Virus record (IMG/VR): IMGVR_UViG_3300044858_000891
Location: 1 to 20,073 of that record
Length of the DNA: 20,073 bases
Direction: 5' to 3' (one strand)
Origin: a virus
Part shown: one piece after another, positions 11,384 through 20,073 of the stretch
Layout of the letters: each line of letters starts with the position of its first letter
Position numbering within the stretch: the first letter of the stretch is position 1
The notes under the pieces: generated by a model
Database searches by the model: none
Told to the model about the DNA's origin: nothing
The model's input: the letters and a program-made list of their open reading frames with translations, nothing else
Position numbers and translations under genes: made by a program

Positions 11384-11567
11384 GCCTGAATGGTTACTGC
11401 CATTTGAAAGTATGGACGTGGGGGATAGTTTTTTTATTCCTACCATCCGTCCTGCAGAGTTAATTTATTCTGTTGACTGTGGCGCTAAGCGCGTTGGCAT
11501 CCGTATAAAGTCTTACGTTACAACGAATGAAGGATATCTTGGTGTGCGTTGTTGGCGTACAGGTTAA
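11361..11567 (+). CDS. small conserved-looking phage protein (68 aa)
   Basis: ATG 11361 lies 23 nt inside the primase-helicase gene. The protein reads EWLLPFESMDVGDSFFIPTI, then a basic alpha/beta stretch (CGAKRVGIRIKSYVTT) and ends GYLGVRCWRTG. Short proteins with Met-x-Val-Gly-Asp-Ser-Phe-Phe near the start and Gly-Val-Arg-x-Trp-Arg at the end are, as I recall, common at the end of replication operons in phages. No role is known to me. No Shine-Dalgarno sequence is visible, so expression by coupling to the upstream gene is probable. Its TAA (11565-11567) overlaps the stop of the convergent minus-strand gene. Confidence 0.75.
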   Translation: MEPTKIIEPEWLLPFESMDVGDSFFIPTIRPAELIYSVDCGAKRVGIRIKSYVTTNEGYLGVRCWRTG

Positions 11568-14500
11568 GGTTTAATACCGTATGCTTTGAAATCTTCTATT
11601 AAGAAATATTTTATAATGTTCTGTTCAAGAGTATTTTCCTTGAGCAATAGAGTTTTGTCTTTAGGCGTGTACGCTTGACTACGACGGATTTCGTTTGCTT
11701 CTTGCCGTAGTTTATTTAATTTTCCACCAGATTTGTTGTATATTTCAATAACTACTTCAGCTAACGGATCTTTATCCAATATTCTGAAATAAGTTTCAGG
11801 GTCGTTTTCTTTAGTCATATTGAGACGTTGTTGTTTCTCAATAATTTCTTTTTCAAACTTTTTAAACTCACGACTGTCAACGTTAGGAACCGCACCTATA
11901 AAGGAACCTAAAAATGGTAAATCAGTTTTAGCTTTAAATTCTTTTGTGCCAGCAACTAAGTAACCCGCGTTAATCATAGAATCAATAACACGTGCAGGAC
12001 CGTCTATATAGCTGTTGGCAAGAAAATAAAGAGTATTAGGTGATATATCAATTGATCCGCCAGAACGTTTAAATAAATTAGTGGCTATTAGTTTATAAGT
12101 TTCTGGGATGTTGTCACCCCCAAGGTATGCGTCGCCCATACGACGGTTAGAGTCGTTATAAATATCTTGCCCAAGACCGTTTTTGTTCATGACAAATTCA
12201 ACTATAGGACGAAACATACTTGGCGTTAATGAATCTACAAACCATGCTCCAGGATTATCTGTTGCGTCCATTCTAGATACAGGAATTGGCACAAATGAGT
12301 CTAACGATATTTGAGTAACAATATTTTGGAACGCCCCTCCCATTGACTGATGCCCACTTATTACACCTGCAAACTGTGAACCTGCAGCTAAAAATGCGCC
12401 ATTTCCAAAGCCCCATGGTAGTTGAAGTGGAGTCTCAAACCCTGGAATATAAATACGCCAGAAACGAGACCATTGATTCATATCATCGTTCATGACTTTA
12501 TTTCTACCTAAATCATCTTCATCTGCCATCATTAAAGCCATGGCGTATGCAAAAGCACCCGCACCCATCAAAGCCGTAATCATGTAACGGGCTGATTTTT
12601 GTTGGAAAGCATAGTTAGCTTTAAACTCTGCTATGGCTTGAGGATCTTTATATACTCTAGGACCGCCTTTTACTTGTTCGTAAGCAAAAGCTCCTTCATT
12701 AGGAAGTGTATCAATTATTTTATTTAATTTTGAAAACGCTGGCGCTACAGACTCAATGGCACGTACAGCACCTGTAGCAGCTGGACGGAAGAACATAAAA
12801 GCTGCACCCATTTCTTTACCGTACTTACCTACTTGCTCAAAGTTAGCTAAGTTTTTAGCGTAAGCAGCGGCTTTTGTTCTAGCACCTTCTTCAGTGAGAG
12901 TCTTGTCTCTAGCCTTAAAGTTTTGTTTAGCAATAGCATATGCCGCAGAACGGCTAGACAATTCAAACATGTTAGTCCAAATATCTATGACTCTATTTAA
13001 CTGATCTACTTTCGTCATAATGCCACTGCGCCCTACTTCTTTAAATAGTTGTTGGGCAGTAGACTTAAGAGATATACCTTGCAGATAGCTAACTAAACCA
13101 CCTTCTTCTATAAACTCCACCATTTCTTTATAGATTGGGTCTTTTTCAGCATACTCTCGTATTTTGTTGTAGTCTTTAGTTTCATATAGTTGTGCAAGTT
13201 TCATACCTTTACGCAAACTATTACCTATAACTACTTTGTTTGTTATCTGCCCAATAAAACGAGCGGCTTCCTGTGGCCCCATTTGTGCGCCAAGTGTCCA
13301 AGCATTGGTTAACGCATCACGCACAAAGTTAAGAGGCGCAAAGTTATAGTTATAACGGGTATGCATCATACCTAAACCGCTTGTAATCTGGTTAGCAAGA
13401 TTAGTTAGCGTATTAGTATCTGTATAAGTACGGCGAATGGCTTCTCGTTTTGCTTTGTCTCTAATTACAATTACGTCAATACTACCGTCTGGGTTGTAAT
13501 GAAATATAGTATTGTCTTTGGGTAGAGCATCTAAAACACTTTTATCTTGGCGCTCTTCAAACGTAATATTTCTAAGTACTTCACCTTCCAAAAGACCTTG
13601 TCCTTTTGGATTAAATTTATTTGCATTAACAGAGTTCTTAATAGCTTGAGTTAAATCAACACGTCCTGCACGCATTGCTGCACGTACAGCATCTGATAGC
13701 GACTGTAGTACTGGGTTGTCTGACACAGACATACGACCATCAAATCCATACGCAACTTCTTGTAACTCTTTACCTAACTTTGCCCCGTCAAAATCCATCA
13801 TTTCATCGGCTTCAGAGTGTTTATCTATACCTTTTAAAGGCACATAATTATTAAACCCATAAAAAGCTACGCGATTGCTAACCGGTTGAGACCAGTAGTT
13901 TGCAGATTGGTTAAGCCCAGTTGTAATTTTGTGTAGCTTCTGTTGGTTAACTATGATCTCATCTATTAAAGCTTTTATTTTAGGGTCTAAATTATCGTAT
14001 TCATTTTTACGCTCAGCAGCTGCGGCGGGACTTAGACCGGTTGCATTGTATATTTCGTTATTAGGATCTATTGAATCTCTTTTAGCTCCTGGACTAGAGC
14101 CTGCCAATGTTACATATTTAGGATTAGGTATTTGATTACCGTTAGCATCGGTAGTAAAAATAATATTGTTAAGTTGTTTTCTTAAATCTTTAGCTTGATC
14201 TTCTGTAATAGTTCTGGTGTTTAAAATTTTTATAATTTGATCACGGCGATCAGCAGCGCTAATCATAACGCCATTCTGAGGTATGTCTTTTACAGTAGAC
14301 AGAGGCACTGATAGTATGTATTTAACTAGACGACGCTCAGGATCGTGCAGTGCCTCCATAATACGATGTAACGAATCTAAAGTATCTTTTGAATCTATAC
14401 CAAGTTCATTAGAAAGTTTAATAACACCGTTGTTTATCGCTTCATAAGTTTCTTGTACGGTGTCATAGAAGATATTCTTAGCTCGTGAGACAGATAACGT

Positions 14501-17500
14501 TAACTGTCCGTAGATGTTGTTAATTTTATCTTTACCGTCGTATTGAATCTTTTTAGCTAAAGCTAAAGTATCTTCCCAAACTTTTATTGCATAACGTTCA
14601 TTTTGCAGTGCGGTAGCAATACGTTTCCAACCTTGTTTGGTAAAGAATAAATTTTTAATGTAGTTTAAGTCTTTAGGTTTGTACTCGTCTTTTACGCCAT
14701 AAGCAGAGTTTTTATAATCTTTTAAGAATATTTGACCGTCGGTTCTTAAATCATCTCCTACTTTTTTCAGATAAGAAACTTCTGTGCCACGTATACTTTT
14801 GCTAGGTAGCGAAATAAGCTGGGCTAAATCTTCAGCTATTTCTTTAAATGCTACACCCTCACGAGGATTACTAATACCTAAAGCAGCTGCTATGCTTTTA
14901 ACAATTGTAGTAAAAAAGTTTTCTTTAGGGGTATAGGGCGTGGGTGATGACATTAATGCTAAATCCATTTGAAACTGTGAGTTACTCCAAAATTCAGCCG
15001 CAAATTCTTTAAGGGACTCAATGTTGTATTTTTTGCCGAATTTAGTTAAAGCAACTTTGTGATTTTGTTTAAGTCGATTTAGCGCTGCCCTTACGTCTCG
15101 TACAACTGGGGCAGGTTTATTAAATTCTTTAAGTAGTTCTCTTCGTTGTGCGACGGCAGCGGCAACTTCTGTTTCATTCTTTTTATCGGCTTTTAGTTTT
15201 TTTATCTTTGCTTCTAAAGCTTTAATTTCTTTATCTAATTCTGTGCGACGTGCCGAATCTTTAGCAGCTTGGTCTTCTAATGACTTAATAAATGCAGCTT
15301 CGTTGTCAAACACATGGTCAAGGGTTGCGTGAGACACTTCGTGCATGACTGTCTCAGCTAATGGGCGCGCCCCGGTGTAACCGTCTTTATTAGTACCTTT
15401 TATGGTAATAGTGTTTGTCTTGGGGTCAAACTGACCGTCTTCGTTAGCTTCTAACTTACCAAACTTAATCTTAGTTTGTATTTGGAAATCAGTTAGTATG
15501 TTTAAAAATTGATTTGCAATAGTGCCCGTCATGCGGTCATTAAGCGTACGGTCCTTAATTGTGTCTAGTATGCTGTCTTTACTTAGCGTTAAGTCATTAT
15601 TAACAATAGCTGACTCTATTTTAGATACAAGCTTAGACTTTCTTTCTTTAGCCTCAGCTTGAACTTCTTTGGTTACTTTTTTCCGCTCTTCGGCACGGGC
15701 AGCAATGCGCTCAGCTTTGGCTTTTTCTTTTGCCTCTGCTTCTTCAACGCTAAGTTCAGCCTCTGCAAGCTGCTCTTTAACATCTTTAATAACTTGCTTT
15801 TCTTGTTTCTGTCTGTACGCTTCCGTACGGCGGTCGCCGGCGGTAGTAATTTTATTGTCTCTAACAGCCGAAATAATCTCTAAATCAAGTATGGCTTCGG
15901 TCATCATGCCAAACTTAAGTGCATCATCTACATTTGCTGCGGCTTGCTCTGCTATAAAGACTTGTCGATCTTTACCTGCATTAATTCTTGCTTGACCACC
16001 TTCCTTTACCATTTGAGCTTCGGTTTTGGTGCCAATGTTCTTCTTAAATAAATCCAGCACCTCTTGCTCAGACATAAACTCAAGCGGTTTTTCCTGGGAG
16101 TATTTAACTTTAGGAGCATCTTTAATTACAGACAAAGCTTCTTTAATGACTTTTTCGCTCTTGCCATCACGAGTCATTTGTGCCCGTTTAGTTTCACGAT
16201 TAGCTTTACGTTCTTTGTTAAGCGCGTCTATCTCTGCATTTTTAGCAGTTTGACGCTCAGCCATTACTTGTTTGATTTCTGGCAGCACCATTTTTTCATA
16301 GGCAATACTGTCATACAAGTCATATGCTTCGTCAAAAGCAGCAGCTTCAATCCCCGCCTCTATAGCATCTTTTGCAACAACGTTTTTATTTTTCTTGGCA
16401 AGTGCTTGGCTTTGCTTTGCAATTTGCTCAGGGGACTTATCAGAATAGTAGCTATTTTTGTTTAAGAAGTTGTAAGACGATGGGTCCTCTGTTTCAGTGT
16501 CTTTTGGACCACGCCATTTAATTGGTTTAGCTACCTTCTCTTCCTTAAAGACGTCACCCTGCACCCCTTCTTTAGTCTTCTTACCAATGTCACCTAGTTT
16601 TTCAGGGGACGACAATAGCTTACGGATGTCTTCAAAAGCACTTACCTTAGTAACTATTTCATCACGTTTTGTTTGAGCGGCGGGTGTGGTTACTTCGGGA
16701 ACAGTTACTTCGGGCGTAACTTCAGCGGCAACTTCTTCTACAGGAGGCGTAACTTCAGCGACAACTTCTTCTACAGGAGGCGTAACTTCTTCAACTGGTT
16801 CAACGGCAGCTTGTTCTGCTTCTAACGCAGCTTGTTGTTCTGCGGCTAGTCTTTGTTCTTCTGCTAAGCGTGCTTGTTCTGCGGCTTGGGCTTGAGCTTC
16901 TGTAGCTAATCTTTGTTCTTCTGCTAAGCGTGCTTGTTCTGCGGCTTGGGCTTGAGCTTCTGTAGCTAATCTTTGTTCTTCAGCTAAACGTGCTTGTTCT
17001 GCGGCAGCGGCATCTAGTGCAGACTGCTGTGCTCCTGCTCCGTCTTCAATTGGGCTGACAGTACTCGTAGTGTCAACCACTCCAGGTCGTCCATCTGCGG
17101 CAATTCCTGCGGGGGGTCCTCCTGCTTCGGGTCCGCTAAGAATTTGAGCGCCATCTCTAGTTGTTGTAGTGTCAACTTGTTGAGTAACATCTTGACCTCC
17201 TCTAAGTGCATTAATACTTGCTTGTTGTCTAGCTATTTTATTTTTTGCGGCGGTTTTAGCTTTATCATTTGCATACTTATTATTATCTAAGTTATTTTGT
17301 ATTCTAACGTTGTCGGCTTCCAACTCTGCAATTTGCTTTGCCTTCTCATCACTAGTTTGTACACTAATTGTTTCGTCTGCCTTAACAGGAGGGGCAGGGG
17401 GTGGTGCCATATCTTTTTGTAGTAATTCTCCAGACTCATTAATAACAGGAGGTAACAAACTTTGAAGCTCTGCATCACTTATTGTGGGTGGTGGGGGAGG

Positions 17501-18523
17501 CAAGTTTTGGAAGGCAGCTTCCTGATCTTTTACTTCTTTACTCTTAGTTTCGTCTGATATAGTTTTTGTAGGAGCGTCTGGTCCACGAACAGCGCCAACA
17601 GTCGAGCCAACTAACGCACCAACTGCAGCATCACGAGCCGCAGCGCCAAGAACACCTTCAAACGTGCCGACCTCAAAGCCTTGTTTCTGTAACGCACGGT
17701 TGATAGCAAGTTGTTCTTGTCCAGCTTGCGCTCCTTCTAATGGGGCTTCGGCAAGAGCCGCTTTGCCCATACGGGGTAGTAGGTTAGCATTTAACTTAGC
17801 AGCTGCACCGGGAGTTAATAAATTCTCAACACCAACCCTAGCAGCTACGCCACCCAGTGCAACGCCACCCATAATGTCTAAGAAGTTAGCCCCTAGATAT
17901 TCCTGAGCCTGTCTAGCTTGTCTATCTGCTTCTTGTTCACTAGTGCCAGACTTAACTAATTCATTCTTAACGTTGTCGTATAGAGAACCTTTTACAGCAC
18001 CGGCACCTTGCACTGCACCAACTGCAGTGTTAACAGCTCGAACTGTGGGGGCTGCTAGTTTACCAATTGCACCAATAATACCTGTACCAACATAAGGAAC
18101 AATAGAGCCAAGTCCTTGGGCTAATGCTTGTACAGGAGCCTCTGCAACACCTGCAAGGAAAGTGCTAATTTCATCTTTACCAGTCTTAGCGGCTTGCTGC
18201 TGTAGCTTTTCACGCCTAGCCATTTCTGCTTTGCGCTCTGGTGTATAAGCCTCGCCAAGAGTTTTTTGCACTGCACCAAGTTGAGAAGAGACAACGTTTT
18301 CTGCACCGAATGCATCGGTAATTGATTTAACAGAACCAACAACACCTTGGCTTAATGCAAGCGCAGTATCTTTTAGAGAGAACCCTGCGTCAACGGGAGG
18401 TGGCGCTGCTTCTTTTTTAACGTTGGGTAGTATGTCACGTTCAATAGCATTAATAATGTCTGCCTGAGACATACTGTCAGGAAAGTTAACTTTCCCAACG
18501 CCGGGTACATTTACAGACGGCAT
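11564..18523 (-). CDS. giant polyvalent-type virion protein with zincin site and LPD38-like region (2319 aa)
   Basis: The N-terminus (MPSVNVPGVGKVNFPDSMSQ) is a short motif I recall from phage internal virion proteins. Residues about 115-315 are Gly/Ala-rich and hydrophobic and could insert into the host membrane. Residues about 400-620 are coiled coil and repeats (Ala/Glu/Gln 20-mers, Pro-Val-Glu-Glu-Val 11-mers). Residues about 980-1200 hold a zincin-type metallopeptidase: MHEVSHATLDH with H1061, E1062 and H1065, and EFAAE (E1173/E1177) as third-ligand candidates. About 1715-2180 resembles LPD38 of phage polyvalent proteins (NFVRDA at about 1733-1738, and a hydrophobic segment at about 1980-1999). 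Such proteins are thought to be packaged and injected with DNA. The start has no Shine-Dalgarno sequence and lies 2 nt after the upstream stop. No terminator follows. Confidence 0.88.
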   Translation of the reverse strand: MPSVNVPGVGKVNFPDSMSQADIINAIERDILPNVKKEAAPPPVDAGFSLKDTALALSQGVVGSVKSITDAFGAENVVSSQLGAVQKTLGEAYTPERKAEMARREKLQQQAAKTGKDEISTFLAGVAEAPVQALAQGLGSIVPYVGTGIIGAIGKLAAPTVRAVNTAVGAVQGAGAVKGSLYDNVKNELVKSGTSEQEADRQARQAQEYLGANFLDIMGGVALGGVAARVGVENLLTPGAAAKLNANLLPRMGKAALAEAPLEGAQAGQEQLAINRALQKQGFEVGTFEGVLGAAARDAAVGALVGSTVGAVRGPDAPTKTISDETKSKEVKDQEAAFQNLPPPPPTISDAELQSLLPPVINESGELLQKDMAPPPAPPVKADETISVQTSDEKAKQIAELEADNVRIQNNLDNNKYANDKAKTAAKNKIARQQASINALRGGQDVTQQVDTTTTRDGAQILSGPEAGGPPAGIAADGRPGVVDTTSTVSPIEDGAGAQQSALDAAAAEQARLAEEQRLATEAQAQAAEQARLAEEQRLATEAQAQAAEQARLAEEQRLAAEQQAALEAEQAAVEPVEEVTPPVEEVVAEVTPPVEEVAAEVTPEVTVPEVTTPAAQTKRDEIVTKVSAFEDIRKLLSSPEKLGDIGKKTKEGVQGDVFKEEKVAKPIKWRGPKDTETEDPSSYNFLNKNSYYSDKSPEQIAKQSQALAKKNKNVVAKDAIEAGIEAAAFDEAYDLYDSIAYEKMVLPEIKQVMAERQTAKNAEIDALNKERKANRETKRAQMTRDGKSEKVIKEALSVIKDAPKVKYSQEKPLEFMSEQEVLDLFKKNIGTKTEAQMVKEGGQARINAGKDRQVFIAEQAAANVDDALKFGMMTEAILDLEIISAVRDNKITTAGDRRTEAYRQKQEKQVIKDVKEQLAEAELSVEEAEAKEKAKAERIAARAEERKKVTKEVQAEAKERKSKLVSKIESAIVNNDLTLSKDSILDTIKDRTLNDRMTGTIANQFLNILTDFQIQTKIKFGKLEANEDGQFDPKTNTITIKGTNKDGYTGARPLAETVMHEVSHATLDHVFDNEAAFIKSLEDQAAKDSARRTELDKEIKALEAKIKKLKADKKNETEVAAAVAQRRELLKEFNKPAPVVRDVRAALNRLKQNHKVALTKFGKKYNIESLKEFAAEFWSNSQFQMDLALMSSPTPYTPKENFFTTIVKSIAAALGISNPREGVAFKEIAEDLAQLISLPSKSIRGTEVSYLKKVGDDLRTDGQIFLKDYKNSAYGVKDEYKPKDLNYIKNLFFTKQGWKRIATALQNERYAIKVWEDTLALAKKIQYDGKDKINNIYGQLTLSVSRAKNIFYDTVQETYEAINNGVIKLSNELGIDSKDTLDSLHRIMEALHDPERRLVKYILSVPLSTVKDIPQNGVMISAADRRDQIIKILNTRTITEDQAKDLRKQLNNIIFTTDANGNQIPNPKYVTLAGSSPGAKRDSIDPNNEIYNATGLSPAAAAERKNEYDNLDPKIKALIDEIIVNQQKLHKITTGLNQSANYWSQPVSNRVAFYGFNNYVPLKGIDKHSEADEMMDFDGAKLGKELQEVAYGFDGRMSVSDNPVLQSLSDAVRAAMRAGRVDLTQAIKNSVNANKFNPKGQGLLEGEVLRNITFEERQDKSVLDALPKDNTIFHYNPDGSIDVIVIRDKAKREAIRRTYTDTNTLTNLANQITSGLGMMHTRYNYNFAPLNFVRDALTNAWTLGAQMGPQEAARFIGQITNKVVIGNSLRKGMKLAQLYETKDYNKIREYAEKDPIYKEMVEFIEEGGLVSYLQGISLKSTAQQLFKEVGRSGIMTKVDQLNRVIDIWTNMFELSSRSAAYAIAKQNFKARDKTLTEEGARTKAAAYAKNLANFEQVGKYGKEMGAAFMFFRPAATGAVRAIESVAPAFSKLNKIIDTLPNEGAFAYEQVKGGPRVYKDPQAIAEFKANYAFQQKSARYMITALMGAGAFAYAMALMMADEDDLGRNKVMNDDMNQWSRFWRIYIPGFETPLQLPWGFGNGAFLAAGSQFAGVISGHQSMGGAFQNIVTQISLDSFVPIPVSRMDATDNPGAWFVDSLTPSMFRPIVEFVMNKNGLGQDIYNDSNRRMGDAYLGGDNIPETYKLIATNLFKRSGGSIDISPNTLYFLANSYIDGPARVIDSMINAGYLVAGTKEFKAKTDLPFLGSFIGAVPNVDSREFKKFEKEIIEKQQRLNMTKENDPETYFRILDKDPLAEVVIEIYNKSGGKLNKLRQEANEIRRSQAYTPKDKTLLLKENTLEQNIIKYFLIEDFKAYGIKP
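16713..16790 (-). repeat. 33-bp in-frame tandem repeats (11-aa unit)
   Basis: Two units at 16713-16745 and 16746-16778 differ at one base (position 16 of the unit), and a third, partial copy begins at 16779. They encode PVEEVxAEVTP-type 11-residue repeats at about residues 580-605 of the giant protein. This is an acidic, proline-spaced linker between the coiled coil and the next domain. Confidence 0.85.
16841..17010 (-). repeat. 60-bp tandem repeat, two identical copies plus partial flanks
   Basis: Positions 16861-16920 and 16921-16980 are identical over all 60 bases. The identity extends to 71 bases when 16850-16920 is compared with 16910-16980. Diverged partial copies flank them on both sides. 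The unit encodes 20 residues (EQARLAEEQRLATEAQAQAA) of a long Ala/Glu/Gln coiled coil at about residues 505-560 of the giant virion protein. Complete synonymous identity points to a recent duplication. Confidence 0.95.
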
Positions 18524-18525
18524 GT

Positions 18526-20073
18526 TTAAGTTTTAGGAATATAAGTAAAAGTACCGTCTTTATTTTGAGTTAACCCTCCACCCGGTGCGGTAGTGCTAGA
18601 TGTGTTGTCTACAACACGCTCTTTTCTACGTTTACTAAAGTCTGCTTCAAACTTTTGTAAAGCTTCTTCTGCATCTGCTACTCTTTTTTGCATAGTAGGA
18701 TTTTTAGCATAATCTGGAAGTTGTTTAAACCTTAAAGCCTTTACATGGTCTTTATACACATCACTGTTTTTTACTTTATCAATACCTTCTTCAATTTGAC
18801 GCTCAAGGTTTCTTTCTTTAAGGTCAGATATAGGACCTGCAGTAATTTGAGCTGCTTTAATTTTAGCGGCAACAGTTTTATCAGTATTATATATAGATTG
18901 ATGATACGCAAGAAGTTTGCCAACCGCTGTAAATTGATTTTTAGCGGTTTCTGCAACAACTTTTTCAGCTGCATCATAATTCCCTGATTTTTCTAAACGC
19001 GCTGCTTTATCAAGATCAACTAAACCTTTATCAATCTCTCTAAAAAGTTTTCCTTTTTCTTTATCACTAGCTACAAAAGTAGGTATTGTATTTTTAAGTG
19101 CTGTTAAAGCAGCAAAAGCAACATTGCCAGGGGTAGTTGCCATTTTTGCAAAGAATAAAGCCGCGTTCATATTAAACTCACGATATTTTTCGTCTTGTAT
19201 ATTACTTTTTGCAGACATCAACCTAGCACGTTCTTTTTGCACAGAATCATCTGGACCAAGATATTTTTCTTTTTTAGCAATTTTTTCTTCTACAGTTTCT
19301 GGAGTTTTACTTAAATATTTTCCAAAAAAGTCTTTTAACTCTGGTGGTAGACTATCTAAAACAGATTTAGCATCAGGTGCAGCAGCGGCAGGTCCACCGG
19401 CAGGGGCAGCGGCAGGGGCAGTTTTATTAGCAGGGGCAGCGGCTGGGGCAGCGGCTGGGGCAGTTCCACCAGGAGGCGCTACAGGTGGAACACTGGTTAT
19501 AGCTGCAGGGAGGGGAGCACCTTTAACAACTGCATTAGGTTTATTAACTAAAGCTGCGTCATAATCAATTTCAGACTGTCTTGCTTCTGCATTTAAAACT
19601 TTAGCGCTATCAGCACTTGCTCTACGCCTTTGTGTAGCTTCTAAATTAGGAGCCATTGAACTATAGTCCCCAGGGATATAAGGCGTGTCAATTCCTAAAG
19701 AACGGACACCTCTATTAACTGTGTTATATGCGCCACTTAAAGCACGACCAGGCAAAGTTAAAACATCTTTTTGTAACGCTGAAGCATAATCTCCAATAGC
19801 TCCAAGAGTTTCTTTTGTTCCAGCTCTGTCTCTAAGTGTTTGCGGATCTGTTTTTTGTTTGTCTTTAACAACACCTTGGTTGTTCTCTTCATCTGGATTT
19901 TTAAACGCAATAATCCCACCACCAGCTTTACCTACCTTATCACGTAGAACTTCTTCAGCTAACTCTTTTGCTATTGGACTAGAAGTTTCTTTAATGTAGT
20001 CTCTAAGATCATCAAGACTCATATCGTAGAGTTTGCCTTTTACTTGACTACCTACGCTGTACGATTTGATACC
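18526..20073 (-). CDS. probable internal virion protein, Ala/Pro-rich linker; 5' end beyond the window
   Basis: An ATG at 20022 would give 498 aa, but the frame stays open for 17 more codons to the window edge (GIKSYSVGSQVKGKLYD before MSLDD). No good ribosome binding site precedes that ATG, so the true start probably lies outside. Near the N-terminus is KAGGGIIAF. Its Gly-Gly-Gly-Ile-Ile-Ala-Phe kernel is frequent in phage virion proteins as I recall them. Residues about 175-225 (counted from ATG 20022) are a low-complexity Pro/Ala/Gly linker. Residues about 240-470 are helical and charged, with Ala-rich stretches (MNAALFFAKMATTPGNVAFA at about 285-305) and basic coiled-coil segments. No enzyme motif is seen. 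It lies immediately upstream of the giant polyvalent gene, so both are probably made from one late transcript and assembled in the same virion structure. Confidence 0.75.
   Translation of the reverse strand, partial: GIKSYSVGSQVKGKLYDMSLDDLRDYIKETSSPIAKELAEEVLRDKVGKAGGGIIAFKNPDEENNQGVVKDKQKTDPQTLRDRAGTKETLGAIGDYASALQKDVLTLPGRALSGAYNTVNRGVRSLGIDTPYIPGDYSSMAPNLEATQRRRASADSAKVLNAEARQSEIDYDAALVNKPNAVVKGAPLPAAITSVPPVAPPGGTAPAAAPAAAPANKTAPAAAPAGGPAAAAPDAKSVLDSLPPELKDFFGKYLSKTPETVEEKIAKKEKYLGPDDSVQKERARLMSAKSNIQDEKYREFNMNAALFFAKMATTPGNVAFAALTALKNTIPTFVASDKEKGKLFREIDKGLVDLDKAARLEKSGNYDAAEKVVAETAKNQFTAVGKLLAYHQSIYNTDKTVAAKIKAAQITAGPISDLKERNLERQIEEGIDKVKNSDVYKDHVKALRFKQLPDYAKNPTMQKRVADAEEALQKFEADFSKRRKERVVDNTSSTTAPGGGLTQNKDGTFTYIPKT
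19381..19470 (-). repeat. short GC-rich repeats coding Ala-Pro linker
   Basis: Irregular tandem copies of a 12-bp unit of the type GCAGCGGCWGGG, which read as Pro-Ala-Ala-Ala on the minus strand. This is much richer in G+C than the surrounding gene and encodes a flexible Ala/Pro/Gly linker. Confidence 0.8.

Follow-up and report, generated by a model that had tools for sequence, protein, structure and literature searches.

A conserved predicted zincin metallopeptidase domain in the giant, putative ejection protein of a virus record

The DNA analysed here, referred to as the window, is a virus record of 20,073 bases. Its plus strand carries replication genes coding for a DNA polymerase A, a PD-(D/E)XK exonuclease, an SNF2-type helicase and a primase/helicase, and two late genes on the minus strand converge on them. 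Within the replication module, the gene at positions 3252-3887 matches the ferredoxin family phrog_3704 (7.2e-84). The coordinates of the features discussed below are collected in Table 1.

Table 1. Features of the two minus-strand late genes, with coordinates in the window and residue numbers of the giant protein.
Feature	Position	Strand	Residues or length	Basis
Giant ORF, putative ejection (internal virion) protein of polyvalent type	11564..18523	-	2319 aa	LPD38; gene order as in N4/KP34 cassettes
Predicted zincin metallopeptidase domain	14816..15592	-	978-1236	AlphaFold2 model m7d4535ea281e, 23-row alignment A3
HEVSH, with probable zinc ligands H1061 and H1065 and general base E1062	15329..15343	-	1061-1065	Motif conservation
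E1173, probable third zinc ligand, first Glu of EFAAEFW	15005..15007	-	1173	Glu in 72/73 proteins
Coiled-coil insert between HExxH helix and Glu helix	15116..15277	-	1083-1136 (54 residues)	Alignment gap, predicted helical
LPD38 domain	11933..12469	-	2019-2197	Pfam PF18857, E 7.9e-20, 72.2 bits, cut-off 27
Gene upstream of the giant, C-terminal part, medium cassette member	18526..20073	-	515 aa, 5' end beyond window	

HEVSH is the sole HExxH motif of the giant protein, and composition shuffles of this protein give rise to an HExxH in 74 of 20,000 cases. The original prediction, made from the letters of the window, of an intact HExxH in a protein of this length is borne out. The motif is part of MHEVSHATLDH (residues 1060-1070), which follows DPKTNTITIKG (1033-1043) and precedes EFAAEFW (1173-1179). 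The distance to EFAAEFW had been put at about 110 residues, and we count 107 residues between H1065 and E1173.

The conservation of the site was counted with a query that does not contain it. Query A5 covers the C-terminal residues 1600-1800 and was built from 14 zincin-carrying proteins. It retrieved 136 relatives, the best 80 of which were retained, and the count is made over the 70 ORFs among these best 80 of 136 that extend 900 residues or more upstream from the centre of the match. All 70 carry an HExxH 400-1000 residues upstream, none carries a second one, and 67 match the A3 profile at E < 1e-3. By contig name, 57 of the 70 are new, the other 13 having already been found with zincin queries. 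Ten short ORFs were left out before the count: two of them still carry HExxH, one (L145) has it in another frame, and the remaining seven are cut by the locus end. The giant gene of L145 (4115-11008) is fragmented across several reading frames, possibly through a sequence fault, and one piece still contains HExxH. A reading of this split gene as a sign of natural cleavage was rejected, because several frames are broken and the sequence may be at fault.

A second set of 73 proteins, with rows cut out around the single HExxH, joins 65 giants to 8 named-phage proteins. The 65 giants are what is left of 71 giants longer than 1800 aa after removal of 6 near-identical ones, some of those kept still being close to each other. 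HExxH is present exactly once in each of the 73 aligned proteins, and conservation is highest in the four columns of H1061, E1062, H1065 and E1173. HExxH was used in no search pattern; the KEFxAE columns of A3 are biased because the search patterns used KEFxAE. The conservation of HExxH is far above chance; the homologues keep the motif as the original prediction needed them to. All relatives of sufficient length retain the site, and a genuine function during infection is therefore very probable. The strict retention of the whole site, general base included, suggests that catalysis is what is selected.

The one exception to Glu in the E1173 column, as aligned, is N4; its NEF motif, which follows the second His at a distance of 77 residues, was missed by the alignment. 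Column 1177, the second Glu of EFAAEFW, is Glu in 21/73 and Tyr in 44/73, and E1177 was rejected as third ligand because so few proteins have Glu there. This pattern points to E1173, not E1177, as the likely third zinc ligand. The spacing of 107 residues is found only in the window protein and in its nearest relative (L079, on the L002 contig); it is 42-64 in the other 71/73 as aligned, with N4 at 77 after correction. Apart from L002, the other members of alignment A1 lack the 54-residue insert and show 54 gap columns in its place; the AlphaFold2 model predicts it to be helical. The MPTases of Iyer et al. 2017 have a variable insert separating their two C-terminal core helices, and the window protein shows this feature. 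For one clade, the same authors describe a His at the end of strand 2 and an Asp three residues after HExxH; D1069 follows H1065 after three residues, but this column is Asp in only 19/73. Compared with L002, nucleotide divergence in the giant gene is 2-7% at residues 601-1000 (window 15524-16723) and 13-48% in all remaining 100-residue blocks. The low-divergence tract points to recent recombination just before the zincin.

For structure prediction, alignment A3 with relatives from virus contigs served as AlphaFold2 input. The resulting model has a mean pLDDT of 90.7 and a pTM of 0.84; a first model from 5 sequences (pLDDT 67.7) was set aside. Two N-terminal helices are followed by three strands (1018-1022, 1030-1033 and 1038-1044), the HExxH helix (1055-1073) and the Glu helix (1171-1180), where model residue n is protein residue 977+n. 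Between the last two lie helices at 1075-1134, comprising most of the insert, and a further helix at 1139-1162. This order of elements is the zincin layout, and a zincin-like fold is what the original prediction had expected of such a model. In a second-look structural alignment, lethal-factor chains reach Z 6.4-7.7 with 138-143 residues aligned, and PPEP/Zmp1 chains reach Z 5.3-5.7 with 121-131 residues aligned; these values overlap with those of coiled-coil proteins, which match mainly the insert and reach Z 8.1. In Foldseek against the PDB, the best match of the model is selecase at E 0.2. Against BFVD, one row has E < 0.001 and is a large polyvalent protein; the best 14 also include crAss-like proteins, internal core proteins and an N4-like vRNAP, and the query-normalised TM-score is below 0.5 in all 50 rows listed. 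Pfam gives no model at cut-off for the window domain, its sub-threshold matches being largely coiled-coil, and phmmer and an 8-row profile find no relative among PDB sequences. As the plain Foldseek matches are weak, the fold assignment rests mainly on the model layout, the conservation pattern and the sequence links. On these grounds, the predicted domain is strongly supported as a zincin (gluzincin-like) metallopeptidase with Glu as third ligand, in agreement with the class originally proposed.

The sequence links extend to named phages. A profile of the 65 giants, independent in that it contains no named phages, was searched with E values at Z 1000, and 48 reversed or shuffled controls gave E of at least 8.8. 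It matches phi14:2 g065 (1.1e-20), Vibrio phage 1.205.O gp20 (9.7e-18), CX5 (1.5e-15), VP17802 (2.8e-14), PM75 (5e-9), Gaspode gp52 (2.2e-8) and residues 2215-2268 of the N4 vRNAP (1.7e-4). KP34 gp48 is marginal, with 0.0043 for the whole protein and 0.49 for the best stretch, and has HExxH and HEM in place. The giants' profile also gave weak N-terminal matches to named phages, the best at 0.0076; these were not used, because a shuffled control reached 0.032. For the N4 vRNAP domain, a lethal-factor match is described in the accessible sections of Iyer et al. 2017 (PMC5512222). In our second-look alignment, the N4 row (PDB 9pnr, gp50) aligns residues 2379-2576 with Z 5.9, at the start of C2 and beyond HExxH (2228). 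As it falls outside the HExxH domain of N4, this row gives no support for homology; it may be noise or a second zincin-like fold that has no HExxH.

In profile libraries, the window sequence is not listed for MPTase-PolyVal (PF18818) at E 1, and 2/8 relatives match it, the best at E 0.056; phrog_2206 is matched by 6/23 members (best 4.6e-7), the window sequence itself not being one of them. Searched by tblastn in the phage collection, the window domain gives no match at E 0.1, the L025 domain none at 0.01, and the giant and medium proteins of L003 none at 1e-5. The L034 domain finds 11 records and the CX5 domain 304 at 1e-3. The whole window giant finds 102 records, through its C-terminal part in the 60 listed. 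Among 40 pattern matches in genome contigs, no relative was confirmed.

The neighbourhood of the gene bears on the role of the protein. In L002, the giant (2425 aa) is preceded by genes for proteins of 138 and 871 aa, and the window protein upstream of the giant is 36% identical to the 871-aa protein over 287 aa. The L003 counterpart of this medium gene (876 aa) matches phrog_4287, 'DNA ejection protein', at 1.4e-8. N4 has the identical gene order (16.5 kDa, 66 kDa, vRNAP), and small-medium-giant is also the order in KP34 (gp46-48), Gaspode and phiHAO78-1. The L005 contig carries terminase, portal and endolysin genes, LPD38 is found in 11/12 of the relatives' records chosen for searching, and phi14:2 g065 is annotated from MS/MS proteomics. 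The giant is probably an ejection protein of a short-tailed phage, carried in the particle. The label 'virion-type' in the original prediction agrees with gene order and homology, and it is from these two that we infer it. The link to polyvalent phage proteins is upheld by LPD38 in the giant and by the proteins described by Iyer et al. 2017 (PMC5512222).

Profile A4 (26 rows, including phi14:2 g065, Vibrio phage 1.205.O gp20 and CX5) connects the domain to solved structures. Among PDB sequences it matches PhiM1 gp48 (8vb2, 5.4e-13), an internal virion protein (9sfn, 7.8e-6) and, weakly, gp10 (23sg, 0.07). Because CX5, which is closely related to 8vb2, is one of the A4 rows, the value of 5.4e-13 is not independent, as that of the 65-giant profile is. 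Over 154 residues (360-513 of 8vb2), 8vb2 and Gaspode gp52 have the same sequence, which includes HEAAH at 385-389 and HEF with Glu 449. All six KP34/PhiM1-type core proteins looked at contain HExxH. The segment 268-528 of PhiM1 gp48 was termed an 'endolysin/exotransglycosidase-like domain' on the basis of BLASTP and DALI, and the terms protease, peptidase, metallo- and HExxH did not turn up in a word search of the paper's main text (PMC11440229). Gaspode gp52 is annotated as 'internal virion protein with endolysin domain'. Among the 25 CX5-matched phage records listed of 304, the labels 'endolysin domain', 'peptidoglycan lytic exotransglycosylase' and 'diguanylate cyclase/phosphodiesterase' occur. 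The HExxH and Glu motifs of the PhiM1 segment argue for a zincin, and we infer that the endolysin-type label of gp48 is inherited. For annotation, this means that the PhiM1 gp48 segment and KP34-type core proteins labelled endolysin-like look like zincins, and solved structures as well as the laboratory phage N4 exist for checking this reading.

We propose that the giant brings a latent virion zincin into the cell, which acts after ejection, and assign this explanation as a whole a probability of roughly 0.57. Judging from predicted fold and conservation, H1061, H1065 and E1173 would hold the zinc and E1062 would be the general base. Gene order and relatives suggest that the giant, encoded by the last gene of the late operon, would be packaged in the head within the ejection core and pushed into the cell along with the DNA. 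The peptidase would be latent in the virion and would become active once it has been ejected, either at the inner membrane or inside it. Its substrate may be a host protein or ejected phage proteins, which we consider about equally likely. In more general terms, an intact virion zincin may be a part of the ejection machinery in short-tailed and crAss-like phages (the window family, KP34/PhiM1, N4 and phi14:2) that is delivered and cuts a host or ejectosome protein at DNA entry, with the PhiM1/KP34 proteins mislabelled as peptidoglycan hydrolases. We put this generalisation forward tentatively, as a possibility that falls somewhat short of probable. Among titles and abstract openings in the open-access literature, no paper reporting a test of this site was found.

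The timing is where the proposed action after ejection has to be weighed against self-processing, in which the zincin would cut its own polypeptide or other ejection proteins, at assembly or at entry, and free separate units. Iyer et al. 2017 consider the same alternatives for the role, leave it open and favour processing for the class (PMC5512222). In the window protein, a long low-complexity stretch at about residues 320-620 lies between conserved parts and would suit such a cut. For P1 DdrB, autoproteolysis is inferred, and the protein is reported to be cut before packaging (PMC5512222), which is a counter-example to latency in the virion. Against this, the N4 vRNAP is described as packaged unprocessed (PMC5512222), and a preprint notes 'no evidence of degradation' for purified recombinant gp50 of full length (PMC12633501). 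Proteolysis ahead of ejection is therefore unlikely in N4. PhiM1 gp48 retains the domain in the core: residues 268-528 are modelled in the packaged core, with loops inside the domain disordered (PMC11440229). As these loops are disordered and the study, in its accessible text, contains no mass spectrometry, a cut chain may exist there. N4 grids contain classes of isolated RNAP and probably of isolated CTD, for which the authors of the preprint blame flexible linkers (PMC12633501). Taken together, the published N4 and PhiM1 data speak against cutting before ejection, and we favour a peptidase that acts after it. We regard self-processing as rather unlikely, and where it would take place only after ejection it overlaps with the explanation we favour.

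Two further explanations place the domain outside proteolysis of delivered or host proteins. T7 gp16 carries a transglycosylase, and the domain could replace it and help to cut the path through the cell wall. Its position in PhiM1/KP34-type phages, within the largest of the ejection proteins and the third in order, would fit, as would the 'endolysin domain' and 'lytic exotransglycosylase' labels in several of the 25 CX5 rows listed and the label that the PhiM1 authors derived from BLASTP and DALI (PMC11440229). However, the segment has HExxH and Glu motifs, lysozyme and transglycosylase Pfam models do not match the Gaspode, KP34 and VP17802 proteins at E 0.1, and the published N4 model has the polymerase and the C-terminal part, anchored to the membrane, refolding in the cytoplasm, which places the domain there (PMC12633501). 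An envelope hydrolase is improbable on this evidence. The zinc site could also be a structural relic, kept for stability or packaging and not for cutting, and according to work cited by Iyer et al. 2017 (PMC5512222), encapsidation in N4 depends on the region that includes the domain. Yet E1062, which is no zinc ligand in zincins, is kept alongside the ligands, and the motif persists in each of the long ORFs counted, so that we give the relic a slim chance at most.

The proposed latent zincin acting after ejection can be compared with several known systems. Among them are the solved zincins lethal factor and Pro-Pro endopeptidase. They resemble the model at the level of the fold (Z 5.3-7.7), but no sequence match is found among PDB chains, and they are different proteins with different delivery. 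Tetrameric PhiM1 gp48 (8vb2) and the KP34-type proteins share the zincin profile match, the HExxH and Glu motifs and the place in the gene order; they differ in length, with 1230-1293 aa in the six looked at against 2319, and in their endolysin/exotransglycosidase-like label. Vibrio phage 1.205.O gp20 matches both the zincin and the C-terminal part of the window giant, but is longer (3130 aa), with 23.5% identity across the C-terminal part.

The C1 domain of N4 gp50 (PMC12633501) has a single HExxH, HELVH at 2228-2232, and a later NEF with Glu 2310, and like the window protein gp50 is the giant of a small-medium-giant cassette. In contrast to gp50, the window protein has no detectable RNA polymerase: RNA polymerase Pfam models do not match it, and the RNA polymerase and C2 parts of N4 reach best E values of 0.15 and 0.066 against the 65 giants, so that the zincin is the only part detectably related by sequence. 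The MPTases of Iyer et al. 2017 (PMC5512222) share the HExxH helix followed by a Glu helix, the variable insert, the large multidomain protein and an LPD domain. Unlike these, the window domain has a 54-residue coiled-coil insert and no Pfam MPTase-PolyVal match. The giant adds, by its sequence, to the polyvalent-protein metallopeptidases predicted there. Such sites in phage proteins had thus already been predicted; here the site proves to be retained in all relatives that are long enough.
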